DNA of 60,495 nucleotides. Origin: an uncultured Gemmiger sp. (GTDB lineage: Bacteria; Bacillota; Clostridia; Oscillospirales; Ruminococcaceae). A program made the translations under genes and the position numbers. Where the stretch lies: NCBI GenBank assembly GCA_944382835.1, contig CALWNP010000013.1, positions 1-60,495 of the forward strand, written 5' to 3'. Below are positions 8,339 to 60,495 of this stretch, in pieces. The notes under the pieces were generated by a model that worked only from the letters and a program-made list of their open reading frames with translations, did not search any database and was not told where the DNA came from. Within the stretch, counting starts at the first letter, position 1; every line of letters starts with the position of its first letter.

Positions 8339-8422
8339 TGGACGAAATGTTGGATTTGTTAGAAATTACACGAACGGGTTTTATAGCATGCGCACAAAAA
8401 TTTTCCAATTGTTGCACAGATA

Positions 8423-51083: not shown

Positions 51084-52190
51084 TCAGTTGGCGGCCTTGA
51101 TGGCGCGGATCTCTTTGATCAGTTCGGGAACGACCTTGAACAGATCGCCGACGATGCCGTAGCTGGCCACGTCGAAGATCGGGGCGCTCTCGTTCTTGTT
51201 CACAGCGATGATGGTCTCGGAATCCTGCATGCCAGCGACATGCTGGATGGCGCCCGAGATGCCCAGCGCAATGTAGATGCGGGGATGGACGGTCTTTCCG
51301 GTCTGACCGACCTGATGGTCGGAAGACAGCCAGCCGGCATCGGTGACGGCACGGGAAGCGCCCACGACGCCGCCCAGCACGCCGGCCAGTTCCTCGGCCA
51401 GGGCGATACCCTTGTCCACATCGGAGCTGATGCCGCGGCCCACAGAGACGACCACGTCGGCACCAATCAGGTCCACCATCTTCTTGGCGGACTTCTTGAT
51501 GTCCAGGATCTGGACATGGATGTCGTCGGCGGTCAGGGCCGGGGTGATCTTCTCCACCACGACCTTGGCAGCACCGGCCTCATCGAAGGGCTGGGTCTGC
51601 ATAACGCCGGGACGGACGGTGGACATCTGGGGACGGAAGCGGGGGCAGATGATGGTGGCCATCAGGTGACCGCCGAAAGCCGGACGGGTCATCTTCAGGT
51701 TGGTGTTCTGCTCGAACTTGGTGTTGTCCACATCGATGTTGGAGGTGGTGCGCAGGAATTCCTTGTACTTCTCCACATCCACATCCAGGTGGGTGCAGTC
51801 GGCGGTCAGGCCGGTGTGCAGACGGGCTGCGCAGCGGGGGCCCAGATCACGGCCCAGGTTGGTGGCGCCGATCAGAACGATCTCGGGCTTCTTCTCCATG
51901 ACCAGGTCGCACATGACCTTGGCATAGCCGTCGGTGGTGTAGTCCTTCAGCAGGGGGCTGTCGATGTAGTAAACGCGGTCGGCACCGTAGCCGCCCAGCG
52001 CCTTGATGTAATCCTCGTTGACGCCGCTGCCCATGACGACGCCGCACAGTTCGACGCCCAGGTCGTTGGCCAGCTTGCGGCCTTCGCTCAGCAGCTGGTA
52101 GCTGATGGTCTGGATCTGGCCTTCGCGCTGTTCGCAGAAGACCCAAACGCCCTTGAAGGCGGCAGTGTCCATAGCATTGAATTCAGCCAT
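51084..52190 (-). CDS. etfA: Electron transfer flavoprotein alpha subunit
   Basis: With EtfB and butyryl-CoA dehydrogenase forms the bifurcating complex that couples crotonyl-CoA reduction to ferredoxin reduction by NADH. The 368-residue product has an N-terminal nucleotide-binding fold ([20 protein letters not shown]) and the C-terminal FAD domain with [21 protein letters not shown] and [20 protein letters not shown] (the FAD loop). ATG at 52190 behind GGAGAG; 16 bases after etfB. Last gene of the operon. Confidence 0.97.
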
Positions 52191-52206: not shown

Positions 52207-52992
52207 TCAAATCAGGTGCTTGTCGTTCAACAGGCCGACGAGCTGGTCAACGCTTTCGACCATCATGCCAGCGCCCTTGACCGGGGGAGCAAAAGACTTG
52301 TAAACGTTGGTCGGGGAGCCCTTGAGGCCGATGGTGTCAGCCTCGATGAGGGGATCGTCCTTCAGGGTGTTGTAGTCAAAGACATCCAGCGGCTTGTCGT
52401 AGCACTCGAAGATGCCGGAAATGCTCATGTAACGGGGGGTGTTCAGTTCCTTGATGCAGGTCAGCAGGCAGGGAGTCTGAACCTTGATCTCCATGTAGCC
52501 GTCCTCCAGCTGACGCTTGACAACCAGGTCGTTGCCGTTCTTCTGGATATCGGTCACATAGGTCACCTGGGGCAGGTGCAGCTTTTCAGCGATCTGGGGG
52601 CCAACCTGGGCGGTATCGCCGTCGATGGCCTGACGGCCGCAGAAGACGATGTCGTCGGGGCCAACGCCGATCTTGTTGACGGCAGCGGCCAGGATCTGGG
52701 AGGTGGCGAAGGTATCGGAACCGCCGAACTCACGGGCGGAAACCAACACACCACGGTCGGCGCCGCGGGCCATCAGCTCACGGAGCATGCCCTCGGCCGG
52801 AGCCGGGCCCATGGTGACGACGATGACTTCGCAGCCGGTGGCGTCCTTCAGCTGCAGGGCAGCCTCCACGGCGTTCAGGTCGTCGGGGTTGGTGATGGTG
52901 GCCATGGCCGCACGGTCCATGGTGCCGTCCGCCTTGACGGCGACTTTGCCCTGGGTATCAGGGACCTGTTTGACACAAACGATTGCTTTCAT
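52207..52992 (-). CDS. etfB: Electron transfer flavoprotein beta subunit
   Basis: Beta half of the EtfAB flavoprotein. The 261-residue product begins MKAIVCVKQVPDTQGKVAVK and has VEAALQLKDATGCEVIVVTMGP and CGRQAIDGDTAQVGP (nucleotide/FAD binding). In bifurcating ETFs a second flavin sits here; the sequence is consistent with this, but proof would need comparison. Twelve bases after bcd. Confidence 0.97.
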   Translation of the reverse strand: MKAIVCVKQVPDTQGKVAVKADGTMDRAAMATITNPDDLNAVEAALQLKDATGCEVIVVTMGPAPAEGMLRELMARGADRGVLVSAREFGGSDTFATSQILAAAVNKIGVGPDDIVFCGRQAIDGDTAQVGPQIAEKLHLPQVTYVTDIQKNGNDLVVKRQLEDGYMEIKVQTPCLLTCIKELNTPRYMSISGIFECYDKPLDVFDYNTLKDDPLIEADTIGLKGSPTNVYKSFAPPVKGAGMMVESVDQLVGLLNDKHLI

Positions 52993-53004: not shown

Positions 53005-54174
53005 TTACTTCAGCAGCGCGCCGGAGATGACCATCATCATGACTTCGCTGGTGCCTTCGTAGATCTCGGTGATCTTGGCATCGCGCATCATGCGCTCGAT
53101 GGGGTAGTCACGGGTGTAGCCATAACCGCCAAACAGCTGCAGGCAACGGCGGGTCACATCGCTGGCGGTGCGGGCGGCGATCAGCTTGGCCTCGGCAGCC
53201 TCCACGCTGTAACGGCCCTTCTGGCCGTTCATGATGGCCTGCTTCTTCTGGGCAGCCGCGTACACCAGGTACTTGGCGGCGTCCACACGGGCCTTCATCT
53301 CGGCCAGCTCGAACTGGGTGTTCTGGAAGGCGGCGATGGAGCGGCCGAACTGCTTGCGCTCCTTGACGTAAGCGACGGTCTCATCCAGAGCGCCTTCGGC
53401 AATGCCCAGAGCCTGGGCGGCGATGCCGATACGGCCGCCATCCAGGGTGGCCATGGCCAGCTGGAAGCCCTTGCCCTTGACGCCCAGCAGACGATCCTTG
53501 GGGATGATGCAGTCTTCCATGATCAGTTCGCAGGTGGAAGAACCGCGGATGCCCATCTTGTCCTCGGGCTTGCCGACCTTGAAGCCAGGATCGGTGCGCT
53601 CCACGATGAAGGCGGAGATTTCCTTCTGCTTGCGGCCGCGCTTGTCCAGCACGGTGCCGGTGACAGCAATGATGATGAAGACATCGGCAAAGCCGGAGTT
53701 GGTGATGAAGATCTTGGAGCCGTTGAGCTTCCAGTGATCGCCCTCATCCACAGCCACGGTCTGCTGGCCCTGGGCGTCGGTGCCGGCACCGGGCTCGGTC
53801 AGGCCGAAGGCACCCAGCCACTCGCCGCTGCACAGCTTGGGCAGGTACTTGGCCTTCTGCTCGGGGGTGCCGTTCTCATAGATGGGAGCGGCGCACAGGC
53901 TGGTGTGGGCCGAGATGATGACGCCGGTGGTGGCGCAGACCTTGGACATTTCCTCCACGGCCATGACGTAGGACAGCACATCGCCGCCGGCGCCGCCGAC
54001 CTCTTTGGGGAAGTAAACGCCCATCATGCCCAGCTTGGCCATCTTTTCCACGGTCTCTTTGGGGAAGTACTCCTCAGCGTCGACCTTCTTGGCCAGGGGC
54101 TTGACTTCGTTCTCAGCAAACTCCTTGTACATCTTCTGTACCATCTGCTGCTGTTTGGACAGAGTGAAATCCAT
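53005..54174 (-). CDS. bcd: Butyryl-CoA dehydrogenase
   Basis: Reduces crotonyl-CoA to butyryl-CoA with electrons from EtfAB. The 389-residue acyl-CoA dehydrogenase has GAFGLTEPGAGTDAQ, KLNGSKIFITNSGFADVFI, QLFGGYGYTRDYPIERMMRDAK and the catalytic glutamate in IYEGTSEVMM. Its length and position between hbd and etfB point to the short-chain enzyme. ATG at 54174 follows AAGGAGG. Confidence 0.96.
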   Translation of the reverse strand: MDFTLSKQQQMVQKMYKEFAENEVKPLAKKVDAEEYFPKETVEKMAKLGMMGVYFPKEVGGAGGDVLSYVMAVEEMSKVCATTGVIISAHTSLCAAPIYENGTPEQKAKYLPKLCSGEWLGAFGLTEPGAGTDAQGQQTVAVDEGDHWKLNGSKIFITNSGFADVFIIIAVTGTVLDKRGRKQKEISAFIVERTDPGFKVGKPEDKMGIRGSSTCELIMEDCIIPKDRLLGVKGKGFQLAMATLDGGRIGIAAQALGIAEGALDETVAYVKERKQFGRSIAAFQNTQFELAEMKARVDAAKYLVYAAAQKKQAIMNGQKGRYSVEAAEAKLIAARTASDVTRRCLQLFGGYGYTRDYPIERMMRDAKITEIYEGTSEVMMMVISGALLK

Positions 54175-54207
54175 AGCATTATCCTCCTTATGCAAACGAA
54201 TTTCCCC

Positions 54208-54247: not shown

Positions 54248-55120
54248 TTACAGCGCGTCAACCGGGGTCTTGGTGCGGTCGGCGTTGTAGACATAGAAGC
54301 CCTTGCCTGTCTTGCAGCCCAGGTTGCCGCCGCGGACCATCTTGCGGATCAGCGGGCAGGCACGGTACTTGCTGTCACCGGTCTCCTTGTACAGGACATC
54401 CATGATGGCCAGGCAGATGTCCAGGCCGACGAAGTCGCCCAGCTCCAGGGGTCCCATGGGATGGTTGGCGCCCAGCTTCATGGCGGTGTCGATGCCGGCA
54501 ATGTCGGACACGCCTTCCATCTTGATGAAGGCAGCTTCATTGATCATGGGGATCAGGATGCGGTTGACCACGAAGCCGGCAGCCTCGTTGACCTGCACCG
54601 GGGTCTTGCCGATCTCGGCGGAAATCTTCTTGATGGTGTCCACGGTCTCGGCCGGGGTGTTGACGCCAGCGATGACCTCGATGAGCTTCATCCGGTCAGC
54701 GGGGTTGAAGAAGTGCATGCCAACCAGCGGCCGGGACAGGCCCTTGCCGATCTCGGTGATGGAGAGGCTGGAGGTGTTGGAGGCGAAGACGCACTCCGGC
54801 TTGCAGATCTTGTCCAGCTCGCCGAAGGTGGTCTGCTTGACCTTCATATCCTCGAAAGCAGCCTCGACGATCAGGTCGCAGTCCGCGCACAGGTCTTCCT
54901 TCAGGCCCGGGGTGATGGCAGCCATACGGCGGTCAACCTCGGCCTGCTCCAGCTTGCCCTTGGCAACCAGCTTGGCGTAGCCCTTGGCGATCTTGTCCTT
55001 GCCACCCTCGGCCCATTCCTGCTTGATGTCGCACAGCGCGACGGTGAAGCCCTCGCACTGAGCGAAAGCCTTTGCGATGCCCTGGCCCATAGTGCCAGCG
55101 CCGATAACGCCTACCTTCAT
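54248..55120 (-). CDS. hbd: 3-hydroxybutyryl-CoA dehydrogenase
   Basis: Reduces acetoacetyl-CoA to 3-hydroxybutyryl-CoA with NAD(P)H. The 290-residue product has the Rossmann loop GAGTMG (7-12), KPECVFASNTSSLSI, GMHFFNPADRMKLIEVI and NRILIPMINEAAF. AGGAGG precedes the ATG; 36 bases after crt. Confidence 0.97.
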   Translation of the reverse strand: MKVGVIGAGTMGQGIAKAFAQCEGFTVALCDIKQEWAEGGKDKIAKGYAKLVAKGKLEQAEVDRRMAAITPGLKEDLCADCDLIVEAAFEDMKVKQTTFGELDKICKPECVFASNTSSLSITEIGKGLSRPLVGMHFFNPADRMKLIEVIAGVNTPAETVDTIKKISAEIGKTPVQVNEAAGFVVNRILIPMINEAAFIKMEGVSDIAGIDTAMKLGANHPMGPLELGDFVGLDICLAIMDVLYKETGDSKYRACPLIRKMVRGGNLGCKTGKGFYVYNADRTKTPVDAL

Positions 55121-55156: not shown

Positions 55157-55942
55157 TCAATTGTTGGTGAAAACAGCTTTGGGTTTCGGCTTTTCCTTGG
55201 AGAGGAAGCAGCCCATGCCTTCGACCTGGTCATGGGTCTCGAAGCAGTCGCCGAAGAGCTTCTCTTCCACCTCAACGGCCTTCTCGATGGGCAGGCTGAT
55301 GCCCTCGTTGATGGCCTGCTTGCAGTGGCGCACCGCGATGGGAGCGTTCTTGGCAATCTTGGAAGCCAGCTTCATGGCATTGTCCATCAGCTCGGCCTGG
55401 GGATAAACCGCGTTGACCAGGCCGATGCGCAGGGCTTCGTCCGCCTTGATGTTCAGGGCAGAGTAGACCAGCTGTTTGGCCATACCCATGCCCACCAGAC
55501 GGGCCAGGCGCTGGGTGCCGCCGAAGCCGGGGGTGATGCCCAGGCCGACCTCGGGCTGACCGAAGACGGCGTTGTCGCTGCACAGACGGATGTCGCAGCT
55601 CATGGCCAGCTCGTTGCCGCCGCCCAGGGCGAAACCGTTGACCGCGGCGATCACCGGCAGCGGGAAGTGCTCGATCATCAGGAAGATGTCGTTGCCCAGC
55701 TTGCCGAAGGCTTCGCCCTCGGCCTTGGTCATGGTGGACATGGAGCCGATGTCGGCGCCGGCCACAAAGCTCTTCTCCCCTGCGCCGGTCAGGACGACGC
55801 AGCGCACGGTGTTCTGATCAATGCCCTCAAAAGCGGCCTTCAGGTCGGCGAGGACTTCGGGATTCAGTGCATTCAGGGCCTGGGGGCGGTCGATGGTGAC
55901 CACCGCAACGGCACCCTGCACTTCGGTTTTCACAAAAGCCAT
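55157..55942 (-). CDS. crt: 3-hydroxybutyryl-CoA dehydratase (crotonase)
   Basis: Converts 3-hydroxybutyryl-CoA to crotonyl-CoA. The 261-residue enoyl-CoA hydratase has FVAGADIGSM (CoA loop), NGFALGGGNELAMSCDIR (oxyanion hole and first catalytic Glu region) and PEVGLGITPGFGGTQRL (second catalytic Glu). Standard length. Fifteen bases after thl. Confidence 0.97.
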   Translation of the reverse strand: MAFVKTEVQGAVAVVTIDRPQALNALNPEVLADLKAAFEGIDQNTVRCVVLTGAGEKSFVAGADIGSMSTMTKAEGEAFGKLGNDIFLMIEHFPLPVIAAVNGFALGGGNELAMSCDIRLCSDNAVFGQPEVGLGITPGFGGTQRLARLVGMGMAKQLVYSALNIKADEALRIGLVNAVYPQAELMDNAMKLASKIAKNAPIAVRHCKQAINEGISLPIEKAVEVEEKLFGDCFETHDQVEGMGCFLSKEKPKPKAVFTNN

Positions 55943-55957: not shown

Positions 55958-57142
55958 TTACATCTCAACGATGGTGGCGCAGCCCATGCCGCCGCCGATG
56001 CACAGGGTGGCCAGGCCCTTGTGAGCGCCGCGATGCTTCATGGCGTAGAGCAGGGTGACCAGGATACGGGCACCGGAAGCGCCGACGGGATGGCCCAGTG
56101 CGATGGCGCCGCCGTTGACGTTGACCTTGCTCATGTCGAACTCCAGGTCATGGGCAACAGCCAAGCTCTGGGCCGCGAAGGCTTCGTTGGCCTCGATGAG
56201 GTCCATATCGGCGACGGTCAGGCCGGTCTTAGCCATGACCTTGCGGGTGGCGGCGATGGGGCCGACGCCCATGATGGAGGGATCCACGCCGCCCAGCGCA
56301 CCGGCAACCCAGGTGGCCATGGGGGTGATGCCCAGTTCCTTGGCCTTGTCTTCGCTCATGATGACCAGGGCAGCAGCGCCGTCGTTGATGGCGGAGGAGT
56401 TGCCGGCGGTGACAATGCCGTCCTTCTTGAAGGAGGGCTTCAGCTTGCCCAGAACCTCCATCGGGCTCAGACGGGGACCTTCATCGGTGTCGAAGACGAT
56501 CTCGGTCTTCTTCTGCTTGACGGTGACGGGGACGATCTCGTCCTTGAAGGCGCCGGACTTGATGGCGGCGTCGGCCTTGACCTGGCTGTTGTAAGCGAAC
56601 TCATCCAGCTGCTCACGGGTCAGGTGCCACTGCTCGGCCACGTTCTCGGCGGTGATGCCCATGTGGTAGTTGTTGAAAGCGTCCCACAGAGCGTCGTTGA
56701 CCATGGTGTCAACCAGCTCGCTCTTGCCCATGGGATAGCCCATGCGGTAGCCATAGCGGCCCTTCATCATCGCAAAAGGCGCCATGTCCATGTTCTCGGT
56801 ACCACCGGCAACCACGATGTCGGCGTCGCCGGCCTCGATCATCTGGGCCGCCATGTTGACGCAGTTCAGGCCGGAGCCGCAGACCACGTTGACGGTGACA
56901 GCGGGGGTGGTGACCGGCAGGCCAGCCTTCAGGGAAGCCTGACGGGCGACGTTCTGGCCCAGACCGGCCTGGATGACGCAGCCCATGTAGACGTGGTCAA
57001 CCTGCTCGGGGGTGATGCCGGCGCGGTTGATGGCCTCCTTGATGACGATGGAGCCCAGCTCAGCAGCGGGGACATTGGAAAGGGTGCCGCCGAACTTGCC
57101 GATGGCAGTACGGCAGGCGGATGCGATGACGATCTTTTTCAT
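55958..57142 (-). CDS. thlA: Acetyl-CoA acetyltransferase (thiolase)
   Basis: Condenses two acetyl-CoA to acetoacetyl-CoA, the entry to butyrate synthesis. The 394-residue product has the catalytic Cys88 in [10 protein letters not shown], the late [17 protein letters not shown] (His active-site loop) and the C-terminal [15 protein letters not shown] precedes the ATG at 57142. It is 94 bases after coaD; a GC hairpin lies in the gap but no T-run, and I see no convincing promoter there, so coaD and thl may share a transcript. Confidence 0.97.
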
Positions 57143-57236: not shown

Positions 57237-57725
57237 TCAGACCCGCCCTTCCTCCCGTTTGGCCTGGAGGGCAGCCTCCACATTGGGGGTGACGAACTTG
57301 GAAACATCCTGCCCGTAGTGGGCAGCTTCCCGCACGATGGTGGAGGAAAGGAAGCTCCACTCCAGGGAGGTGGCCAGGAACACCGTCTCGATGCCGGGCA
57401 GCAGCGCATGGTTGGTGTGGGCCAGCTGGATCTCGTCCTCGAAGTCGGTGACGGCCCGCAGTCCCCGCACCATGACCGATGCGTGGTTTGCCTGGGCAAA
57501 GTTGACGGTCAGGCCGTTGAAGGACCGCACCTCCACATTGGGGATCTCCTTGCAGCATTCCTTTAACAGGGCCACCCGTTCTTCTACTGAGAAAAGCGGG
57601 GTCTTGGCGCTGTTGATAAGCACCGCGACGATCAGCTTGTCGAACATCCGGGCCGAACGCTTGATGATGTCGAGATGGCCACGGGTGACCGGGTCAAAAC
57701 TGCCGGGGTACATAGCTATGCGCAT
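57237..57725 (-). CDS. coaD: Phosphopantetheine adenylyltransferase
   Basis: Joins 4'-phosphopantetheine and ATP to dephospho-CoA, the next-to-last step of CoA synthesis. The 162-residue product has [15 protein letters not shown] (with the GH nucleotide motif) at the N-terminus and SSTIVRE near 132-138, as expected. AGAGGCG precedes the ATG at 57725. The gene sits first in line before the butyrate operon and downstream of a promoter with a Rex-like site, so CoA supply may be co-regulated with CoA-thioester fermentation. Confidence 0.95.
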
Positions 57726-57767
57726 CTGGTTTCGCCTCTGTGACTGCGCGGCCGGCGGCCGCGGTTA

Positions 57768-57785
57768 TTGTTAAAAAATAGACAA
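57768..57785 (-). promoter_or_regulatory. Rex-like operator in the coaD leader
   Basis: On the plus strand TTGTTAA-AAAA-TAGACAA; the first half matches TTGTTAA exactly and the second matches five of seven (consensus TTGTTAA-N4-TTAACAA), 12 of 14 in all. It lies about 45 bases before the coaD start. Confidence 0.5.
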
Positions 57786-57801
57786 ATTTTGGGTCAAAGG
57801 A

Positions 57802-57895
57802 AAGCACCTTACGCCGTAGCGTCCGTCAGGGAACAGATTGTTATGCGGAAGATTGCGGAGTGTGGTGCTTGCCGGCCTGTGCTTTTACACACAGG
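57802..57895 (-). other. Structured RNA in the coaD leader
   Basis: Read on the minus strand, the leader folds into a CCTGTG/CACAGG hairpin (57895-57890 with 57881-57876), then a multi-element domain closed by AAGCACC (57808-57802 on the plus strand) with GGTGCTT (57864-57870). Inside is an ACGC-UACG-GCGU tetraloop hairpin (57822-57811). No terminator with a T-run follows the closing stem. I do not recognise a known riboswitch class. A CCUCCU sequence near 57899-57894 could pair with a ribosome site. Confidence 0.45.
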
Positions 57896-57908
57896 AGGAC
57901 TATATATA

Positions 57909-57937
57909 GTTTTACCTCATTGTTAAGGTTTTGTCAA
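57909..57937 (-). promoter_or_regulatory. Promoter of coaD-thl-crt-hbd-bcd-etfBA with a Rex-like site
   Basis: A perfect TTGACA (minus strand, 57937-57932) is followed after 17 bases by TAAAAC (57914-57909), with TATATA just beyond. A Rex-like operator, TTGTTAA-GGTT-TTGTCAA on the plus strand (57920-57937, 12 of 14), covers the -35 and part of the spacer. Together with the structured leader and the divergent ptb side this accounts for the 552-base gene-free stretch from 57726 to 58277; the middle part (about 57960-58140) is T/C-rich and shows no further element to me. Confidence 0.7.
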
Positions 57938-58140
57938 TAAATAAAATATGAATTTTTTCGACCGCGCTCCCCTTCCTTTTGTGCAGAAAATACAGCCAGT
58001 CGTCTTTTTTTCTTACTTTTTCCCCATTTGAAAAAATCTGCTTTCTGCCTTGGAAAAAGATTTTCCCCTCTTCGGCCGTCATTCTTCGACCCGGCCCCTC
58101 CTTTGTCGCCAAAGCCGGGCAAAAACACCGGCCTTTCCCC

Positions 58141-58177
58141 TTGACCGGGCAGACACAAAGTGTTATTCTTTTAACAG
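58141..58177 (+). promoter_or_regulatory. Promoter of ptb-buk with a Rex-like site
   Basis: TTGACC (58141-58146), 17 bases, TATTCT (58164-58169). GTGTTAT-TCTT-TTAACAG (58160-58177) matches the Rex consensus at 11 of 14 positions and covers the -10, so binding would block RNA polymerase. Confidence 0.65.
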
Positions 58178-58277
58178 ATAGCGGCCTTTTTTGCGCCGCT
58201 TCGCCCTTTGGCGGGTGTATCCGCGCCTGACATGGTCCTATTTATAAATAAGGAAAAGGCTATTGGGAGGATTGACT

Positions 58278-59192
58278 ATGCTTACAAACTTTGACGATTT
58301 GATTTCCCAGGTGAAACAGTGCGGCAAGAAGACCCTGGCTGTGGCTGCAGCCGAGGACGACGCCGTGCTGGAGGCGGTGGATGCCGCCAAGAAGCAGGGC
58401 ATTGCCGACGCCGTGCTGGTGGGCGACGAAGCCAAGATCCGTGAGATCGCAGCCGGGCTGAACATCGACCTGGCCGGCTACCGCATCATCAACGAGCCCG
58501 ATAAGGTCAAGGCCAGCCTGACCGCCGTCAAGCTTGCCCATGACGGCGAAGTGGACATGTACATGAAGGGTCTGCTGGACACCAAGACCTTCCTCAAGAG
58601 CATCCTGGACAAGGAAGTTGGCCTGCGCACCGGCAAGCCGCTGTCCCACGTGGCGGTCTTTGAGGTCAAGGGCATCAAGCAGCTGCTCTTCCTCACCGAC
58701 GTGGCCTTTATGACCTACCCCACCCTGGAGGACAAGGTCCACATCATCGAGAACACCGTGGCCGTGGCCCATGCCTGCGGCCTGCCCTGCCCCAAGGTGG
58801 CCCCGCTGGCCGCTGTTGAGGTGGTCAACCCCAAGATGCCGGTCACCGTGGAAGCGGCCGAGCTGACCAAGATGAACGAAGAGGGCAAGATCACCGGCTG
58901 CATCGTGGACGGTCCCCTGTCCATGGACATCGCCATCGATCCCGAGGCCGCTGCCCACAAGGGCGCCTCCAACCGCAAGATCGCCGGCGATGCCGACATT
59001 CTGCTCTTCCCCGACATCCATGCCGGCAACCTGGTCTACAAGACCCTGGTCCACACTGCCGAGTGCAAGAACGGCTGCATCCTGACCGGCACCAAGGTGC
59101 CCGCCATCCTGACCAGCCGCTCCGACACCTTCCAGACCAAGGTCAACTCCATCGCCCTGGCCGCCGTGGTGGCCCAGGCCATGAACAAGTGA
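58278..59192 (+). CDS. ptb: Phosphate butyryltransferase
   Basis: Turns butyryl-CoA + phosphate into butyryl-phosphate + CoA. The 304-residue product belongs to the phosphate acyltransferase family ([57 protein letters not shown]), and its close neighbour is butyrate kinase, which separates it from phosphate acetyltransferase. ATG at 58278 follows GGGAGG. Thirty-one bases before buk. Confidence 0.95.
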
Positions 59193-59223: not shown

Positions 59224-60291
59224 ATGTCCATCAAGAGCTTAATCATCAATCCGGGTTCCACCTCTACCAAGATCGGCGCCTTCGAGGACGAGACCCTGCT
59301 GTTTGACAAGACCTTGCGCCATCCCACCGAGGAGATTGCCAAGTACGCCTCCATCATCGACCAGAAGGACTTCCGCAAGAAGATTATCCTGGACACCCTG
59401 AAGGAAGACAACTGCGACATCCATTCCTTTGACGTTATCGTGGGCCGCGGCGGCCTGCTCAAGCCCATCGAGGGCGGCACCTACGCCGTCAGCGACGAAC
59501 TGCTGGCCGACCTGAAGAAGGGCGTCCAGGGGCAGCATGCCTCCAACCTGGGCGGCATCCTGGCCCGGGAGATCGGCGATGAGATCGGGGTTCCCTCCTA
59601 CATCGTGGACCCGGTGGTCGTGGATGAGCTGACCGACCAGGCCCGGCTGTCCGGCATGCCCGAACTGCCCCGCCGCAGCATCTTCCACGCCCTGAACCAG
59701 AAGGCGGTTGCCCGCCGCTATGCCAAGGAACACGGCAAGCGGTATGAGGACCTGAACCTCATCGTCATCCATATGGGCGGCGGTGTCTCGGTGGGTGCCC
59801 ACAGCCACGGCAAGGTCATTGATGTCAACAACATCCTGGACGGCGAGGGCTGCTTCTCCCCCGAGCGCGCCGGCACCGTTCCGGCGGGCGACCTGGTCAA
59901 GATGTGCTTCAGCGGCAAGTACACCCAGAAGGAGATCTACAAGAAGATCTGCGGCAACGGCGGCTTCAACGGCTACCTGGGCACCAACGACGCCCGTGTG
60001 GTGGAGCAGATGGTCAAGGACGGCAACGCCAAGGCCAAGCTGGTGCAGGATGCCTTCTACTATCAGATTGCCAAGGACGCCGGCGCCATGGCCACCGTCC
60101 TGGAAGGCAAGGTGGATCAGATCATCCTGACCGGCGGCATCGCCTACAACCCCTACACCCGCGAGGTGCTGGAGAAGAAGATCGGCTTCATTGCCCCCAT
60201 CACCGTCTATCCCGGCGAGGATGAGCTGCTGGCCCTGGCCCAGGGCGCACTGCGCGTCATGAATGGCGAGGAAGAAGCCAAGGTGTACTGA
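59224..60291 (+). CDS. buk: Butyrate kinase
   Basis: Makes ATP and butyrate from butyryl-phosphate. The 355-residue ASKHA-family kinase begins with [16 protein letters not shown] (about 8-23) and has the late [21 protein letters not shown] and [14 protein letters not shown]. Typical length for Buk (about 355; acetate kinase is near 400). AAAGGAG precedes the ATG. A strong terminator follows. Confidence 0.96.
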
Positions 60292-60424: not shown

Positions 60425-60495
60425 CGGGGTGTTGCGCAGTTGGTAGCGCGCCTGCTTTGGGAGCAGGAGGCCGCGAGTTCGAGTCTCGCCACTCC
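60425..60495 (+). tRNA. tRNA-Pro (anticodon TGG), 3' end beyond the window
   Basis: The acceptor stem CGGGGTG, D arm, anticodon stem CCTGC-TTTGGGA-GCAGG (anticodon TGG, 60458-60460) and T arm with TTCGAGTC all fold. The 3' arm CACTCC needs one more G, just outside the window. Anticodon TGG reads CCA/CCG proline codons. Confidence 0.95.

Follow-up and report, generated by a model that had tools for sequence, protein, structure and literature searches.

The genes of the butyrate pathway form two divergent runs in the last 10 kb of the window (the whole stretch of DNA that was analysed, 60,495 bases). The genes are as follows, with the family models that support each assignment and, where given, the score over the family cut-off:

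51084–52190, minus strand: etfA (PF01012 and PF00766)
52207–52992, minus strand: etfB (PF01012; the subunit is assigned from its position beside etfA)
53005–54180, minus strand: bcd, acyl-CoA dehydrogenase, for butyryl-CoA by context (Pfam acyl-CoA dehydrogenase domains)
54248–55120, minus strand: hbd, 3-hydroxybutyryl-CoA dehydrogenase (best NCBIfam model NF004474, below its cut-off)
55157–55942, minus strand: crt, short-chain enoyl-CoA hydratase (best NCBIfam model NF004475, below its cut-off)
55958–57142, minus strand: thl, acetyl-CoA C-acetyltransferase (TIGR01930, 478 bits over 240.55)
57237–57725, minus strand: coaD, pantetheine-phosphate adenylyltransferase (TIGR01510, 204.7 bits over 103.3)
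58278–59192, plus strand: ptb, phosphate butyryltransferase (TIGR02706, 445 bits over 410.5)
59224–60291, plus strand: buk, butyrate kinase (TIGR02707, 541 bits over 289.1)

The genes of the leftward run, coaD-thl-crt-hbd-bcd-etfB-etfA, are separated by 94, 15, 36, 67, 12 and 16 bases in that order, and the coaD-thl/ptb-buk junction is also found in public records titled Gemmiger, Faecalibacterium and Subdoligranulum. A tRNA-Pro gene (TGG) at 60425–60495 is cut by the window end. Between coaD and ptb is an intergenic region of 552 bp (57726–58277), which contains three palindromic sites resembling operators of the repressor Rex together with the following elements:

57726–57902, minus strand: untranslated leader of coaD-thl, its start estimated from the -10 box
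57768–57785, strand not given: site 1, a Rex-like operator with the sequence TTGTTAAAAAATAGACAA that lies within the leader of coaD, 42 bases upstream of its start codon
57909–57937, minus strand: coaD-thl core promoter, TTGACA-17-TAAAAC, aligned in 25 loci (-35 at 57937–57932, -10 at 57914–57909)
57920–57937, strand not given: site 2, Rex-like operator TTGTTAAGGTTTTGTCAA, on the coaD-thl promoter
58141–58169, plus strand: ptb-buk core promoter, TTGACC-17-TATTCT with an extended -10 (TG), aligned in 30 loci (-35 at 58141–58146, -10 at 58164–58169)
58160–58177, strand not given: site 3, a Rex-like operator with the sequence GTGTTATTCTTTTAACAG that covers the extended -10 of the ptb-buk promoter

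Relative to the palindrome TTGTTAA-N4-TTAACAA, sites 1 and 2 each have two mismatches in 14 positions and site 3 has three; the preliminary description had placed the sites at these same positions with 12/14, 12/14 and 11/14 matches, and our recount agrees exactly. A scan of the window at three or fewer mismatches returned exactly three matches, and these are sites 1, 2 and 3, compared with a mean of 0.14 matches and a largest count of two in 100 shuffles. When the intergenic region was shuffled 20,000 times with dinucleotides preserved, no shuffle had three matches at this threshold (mean 0.06), and when 105 palindromes with permuted half-sites were scored on the region, the Rex palindrome alone had more than one match. 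A chance origin of the three sites was rejected on the window scan, the intergenic shuffles and the permuted palindromes over relatives that are given below. Scoring with Rex matrices had also been suggested in the preliminary description, and with matrices trained without this locus and scored on the window only, all three sites are among the four best-scoring of 60,478 positions. Using a matrix from eight published predicted Caproicibacterium sites, sites 1, 2 and 3 rank 1, 4 and 3, with rank 2 going to a sequence at 57931 that partly coincides with site 2; using one from nine sites before thl or coaD-thl in other genera, they rank 1, 2 and 4, and rank 3 is a stretch at 8356. The sequence at 57931–57948 is a weaker match with four mismatches that shares one half-site with site 2, and a 3- or 4-mismatch match is present at that offset in some relatives.

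Sites 2 and 3 lie on promoter-like boxes and site 1 lies in the leader, so that the placement of site 2 on the -35 of coaD-thl and of site 3 on the -10 of ptb-buk in the preliminary description was right. One half of site 2 is the TTGACA -35 box of the coaD-thl promoter and the other half, TTAACAA, is in the spacer; site 3 covers the -10 of the ptb-buk promoter, which is taken in by one of its halves, and extends to the likely start site. A pattern scan of the minus strand also gave an alternative register, TTAACA-16-TATAGT, which by eye is not kept in relatives, and inspection of the aligned leaders by eye gave no convincing -35/-10 pair for a second promoter under site 1.

The sites are retained together with the promoters among relatives, where the preliminary description had proposed to look for them. 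We found ptb in 30 of 35 genomes of the genus, and in 25 of these 30 coaD is divergent from ptb with thl in the same stretch. Counting matches with up to three mismatches, 23 of the 25 genus junctions between coaD and ptb have site 1 and 24 have site 2, and site 3 is present at 28 of the 30 ptb promoters; one junction (L055) is without site 1 and has four mismatches in site 2. At the junction of the Gemmiger formicilis type strain (L115) the sites have 1, 2 and 3 mismatches. Averaged over alignment columns, identity in the half-sites is 0.88 (site 1), 0.97 (site 2) and 0.96 (site 3), compared with 0.45 to 0.71 in the 30-base flanks. Over the 25 regions the Rex palindrome has 75 matches, whereas the next of the 105 permuted palindromes, one similar to the left half of site 3, has 24 and the median is 0. 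In four genomes (G006, G016, G022 and G032) coaD-thl lies apart from ptb, and there coaD-thl retains sites 1 and 2 and ptb retains site 3. No ptb was found in another genome (G013), where sites are present at coaD-thl, and in G029 and G030 coaD is not beside thl and no site is present within 600 bases before coaD (L209, L210).

The overlap of one half of site 2 with a -35 box and of one half of site 3 with a -10 box would also be explained if both sites were simply core promoter hexamers that resemble half-sites by accident, with site 1 a chance match. However, the halves that lie outside the boxes (TTAACAA in the spacer, and TTTTAACA after the -10) are as well conserved, site 1 is retained at nearly all of the junctions with no promoter pair seen beneath it, and no permuted palindrome approaches the count of the Rex motif over the 25 regions. 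We give this explanation almost no credence, and promoter boxes alone as the cause of the palindromes were rejected, being already contradicted by the halves outside the boxes.

One redox switch for both halves of the pathway, with possible looping between the sites, had been put forward in the preliminary description. The first part, a single regulator for both halves, is well supported, but the second is not borne out by the spacing or by the genomes in which the two gene sets are split. Looping would have Rex at sites 2 and 3 bring the two promoters together and repress them jointly, and the presence of three sites inside 410 bp is in keeping with such an arrangement. However, the distance between sites 2 and 3 can be as short as 108 bp or as long as 484 bp among 25 loci, that between sites 1 and 2 ranges from 125 to 178 bp over 24 loci (L055 excluded), and the helical phase of the spacing is not significant (Rayleigh p 0.11 to 0.61); moreover, the sites are retained in the four genomes in which the promoters lie apart. 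Joint repression through a loop is therefore very improbable, and looping between the sites was rejected on the spacing and the split genomes, and is not needed.

Related sites are also found before other genes in the genus. The promoter of the group B1 [FeFe] hydrogenase has a site in 26 of the 30 genus loci that were read (35 genomes have a match to the hydrogenase). In this genome, too, a Rex-like site lies upstream of the B1 hydrogenase gene (L032, site at 2001; G000:C83:7604). AdhE, the gene for which is a classic Rex target, was found at E ≤ 1e-100 in only two of the 35 genus genomes, G029 and G030 (NF010378, 1371 bits over 951), and both have a one-mismatch Rex-like site 99 to 137 bases before the adhE start. 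Searches among the 35 genus genomes found neither ptb nor thl in these two, the empty thl search being one with its own positive control absent, although the same query matched other genomes. Because G029 and G030 are close (AdhE is 96% identical over the 476 residues available for G030) and the genomes are 87–89% complete, the adhE cases count as one event at most. In these two genomes (L242, L243, L246) it is as if one NADH sink, AdhE, had replaced the other, the butyrate genes.

At three or fewer mismatches, no excess of the motif over a backwards control was seen across this genome, with 27 matches compared with 45 for the control; at one mismatch or fewer there are 0 matches compared with 1 here, and 18 compared with 11 over the 35 genomes. 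Since the control is the commoner at three or fewer mismatches, mismatch counting alone makes no regulon, and it is position and conservation that do so. Several of the genus matches with one mismatch or fewer precede other genes, for example those for trigger factor and an ABC permease, which to our knowledge are not Rex targets. A phosphofructokinase gene in two relatives (L239, L245) has a one-mismatch Rex-like site before it.

The proposal of Rex control in the preliminary description called for a rex gene, and the genome has one (L001:1486–2139), the product of which scores 237.9 bits with NF003990, just over the NCBIfam equivalog cut-off of 233. Its relatives include solved Rex proteins, 3wg9 first, and the alignment with 3wg9 spans the DNA-binding region. 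With rex present, the matrix scores of the sites at the top of the window and the sites conserved, none of the three outcomes named as refuting in the preliminary description was seen. Among the 35 genus genomes rex was found in 31 and not in G002 (93% complete), G018, G021 and G030, all four being drafts that are 71 to 93% complete, and the draft state of the assemblies may explain the missing gene. Autoregulation of rex is frequent, not universal; within 500 bases upstream of rex in this genome there is no site at three or fewer mismatches, and in 22 of the 30 rex loci that were read a 3-mismatch match lies over a TTGACA box.

The genomes in which rex went undetected bear on a further possibility, that the palindromes are real operators of another repressor that recognizes the same sequence, with Rex as a bystander. 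Among them, G002 and G021 have all three sites, G030 has the one-mismatch adhE site, and G018 has a ptb site at four mismatches, as could be expected if another protein were the ligand. However, these are the draft genomes noted above, the motif is the clostridial Rex motif as published in the text available of PMC9600882, the gene set (adhE, hydrogenase, thl and ptb) suits a Rex regulon, and rex is over its family cut-off in this genome. We regard such a second repressor as quite unlikely.

Judged from the sequence, we are confident in predicting that all three palindromes serve as operators for Rex, the NADH-sensing repressor, acting on both groups of butyrate genes. At a low NADH/NAD+ ratio Rex would occupy the -35 and spacer of the coaD-thl-crt-hbd-bcd-etfB-etfA promoter at site 2, and, at site 3, the extended -10 of the ptb-buk promoter together with its likely start, and would so keep RNA polymerase off both promoters; repression by steric hindrance is consistent with the location of these sites on the -35 and -10 boxes. 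Further downstream, within the leader of coaD-thl, site 1 would probably be a second block on the same transcript. We infer the identity of Rex as the binding protein, its release by NADH, the transcription of the seven leftward genes as one unit, and the role given here to site 1. Rex leaves DNA at high NADH in clostridia, as described in the parts available of PMC9600882 and PMC5050335. When NADH rises, Rex would be released here and both halves of the acetyl-CoA-to-butyrate route would be made, and Hbd and Bcd/Etf would then consume NADH and restore the balance; since these enzymes spend NADH, the circuit would be a homeostat. It would be closed by ptb-buk, which frees CoA and makes ATP. 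The direct prediction is that the NADH level switches both halves of the butyrate route through Rex, and natural comparisons are offered by the split gene sets and by the adhE branch, in which no butyrate genes were detected. The butyrate producers of the Gemmiger/Subdoligranulum group are common in the gut, and a limited literature search found no paper on Rex in this group.

If the coaD-thl promoter is right, site 1 is transcribed, and it could then be a leader RNA hairpin instead of, or besides, a Rex operator, with an effect on stability or translation. The leader contains a possible RNA stem, AAGCACC/GGTGCTT, the 3' side of which ends 16 nt before site 1, and many relatives have in their leaders a GCACC/GGTGC stem upstream of site 1, at a distance of 14 to 18 nt in those leaders in which this stem is the best helix, together with a hairpin that encloses site 1 and that C-rich and G-rich flanks lengthen. 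We probed the structure by folding, a consensus fold of 11 leaders, a helix search and a realignment of 23 leaders; alignment A1 contained 18 and A2 11 of 25 leaders, and A3 contained 23 of 29, without L038, L041, L054, L205, L206 and L207. Compensatory changes are seen in only 2 of the 28 pairs predicted in the consensus fold, and as the core pairs hardly vary, the leader RNA structure is a suggestive lead; among Rfam families, none was near threshold in the leader and there were two weak hits. Further points that argue against a hairpin are that in the window itself site 1 has no flanking stem and no more than four outer pairs that are clean, that drift in the left half of site 1, opposite an unchanging right half, breaks the inner pairs, and that the coaD leader of another genus (L213) has a one-mismatch site with, by eye, no flanking stem. 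A role of site 1 as an RNA hairpin thus appears unlikely, and we prefer to see it as a putative Rex operator. A recurring long-range stem in the leader (57726–57902) and a 5' hairpin in relatives were also noted, and the coaD-thl leader could be a structured RNA with a regulatory role.

For Clostridium acetobutylicum, the text available of PMC5050335 reports Rex sites at thlA, crt and ptb, so that thl, the crt operon and ptb are targets alike in the two systems, and the motif is alike too, going by the wording for Clostridiaceae in the part available of PMC9600882. Here, by contrast, all of the pathway genes are at one divergent junction with three sites, the operon begins with coaD, and AdhE went undetected in 33 of the 35 genus genomes. 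In Caproicibacterium lactatifermentans, Rex sites are predicted at thl-crt-hbd, cat and hydA (PMC9600882, Table 1, from the part available), and thl-crt-hbd, a terminal gene and a hydrogenase are similarly under the same motif; the terminal step is cat there and ptb-buk here, and Table 1 has one predicted site per operon and does not include coaD. According to the text available of PMC5367854, Clostridium pasteurianum shares with the present locus sites at thlA and crt-bcd-etfBA-hbd, whereas none was found there before ptb-buk or hydA, both ptb-buk and the B1 hydrogenase having a site here. Most likely, a known scheme of Rex control extends, as far as the sequences indicate, to another bacterial group. 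The arrangement is not new in kind, and its unusual point is that the single clear coaD is the first gene of the operon under this putative control.

Exactly one copy of coaD over the family cut-off is present in 32 of the 35 genomes, including this one, with weaker second matches below the cut-off, and in 30 of these 32 the single copy adjoins the thl group (the 25 junctions together with L204 to L208). With the only clear copy linked to thl so consistently, coaD is under these sites in nearly all of the genomes. Four further genera of the family (L213 to L216) also show the coaD-thl linkage, and in Moorella coaD shares a single cluster with thl, hbd, bcd and crt, as here, according to the text available of PMC11328732. 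The Moorella cluster has fixABC with coaD near the end, whereas here there is etfBA with coaD at the head, and the available text mentions no Rex site for Moorella. A limited literature search found no relevant paper on Rex together with phosphopantetheine adenylyltransferase. In other bacteria coaD is essential. The present arrangement raises the question of why the single clear coaD should be under a fermentation repressor. A possible, if doubtful, answer is that the NADH/NAD+ ratio sets the CoA supply, with the single coaD heading a Rex-repressed operon in which a roadblock at site 1 in a structured leader would keep a basal level of expression and allow strong induction. If this were true, redox state, CoA supply and butyrate output would be one circuit.

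Sites of this type are also found at further thl and ptb loci. In a family sample of 148 genomes a thl match was found in 16, at 19 places, and coaD is upstream in six of these 19 loci; a site lies within 600 bases in nine of the 13 best loci, which include this genome and one of the same genus, compared with one of the six weakest. For ptb, the best 80 of 152 loci were taken, and five of the 80 with fewer than 250 bases upstream were excluded. A site is present within 250 bases in 36 of the 52 ptb loci without coaD, compared with a mean of 1.2 in mononucleotide shuffles, and the other 16 are without one; by their titles the ptb loci without coaD are mostly from Lachnospiraceae, Eisenbergiella and Acetatifactor, and also from Clostridiales, Eubacteriales and three Gemmiger. 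The Ptb of some Lachnospiraceae MAGs (L065 to L144) is no further from that of the window (87%) than are the closest copies of the same genus. Some of the ptb loci in Lachnospiraceae MAGs also have a nearly identical operator, and ptb-buk may have been transferred between families together with it.
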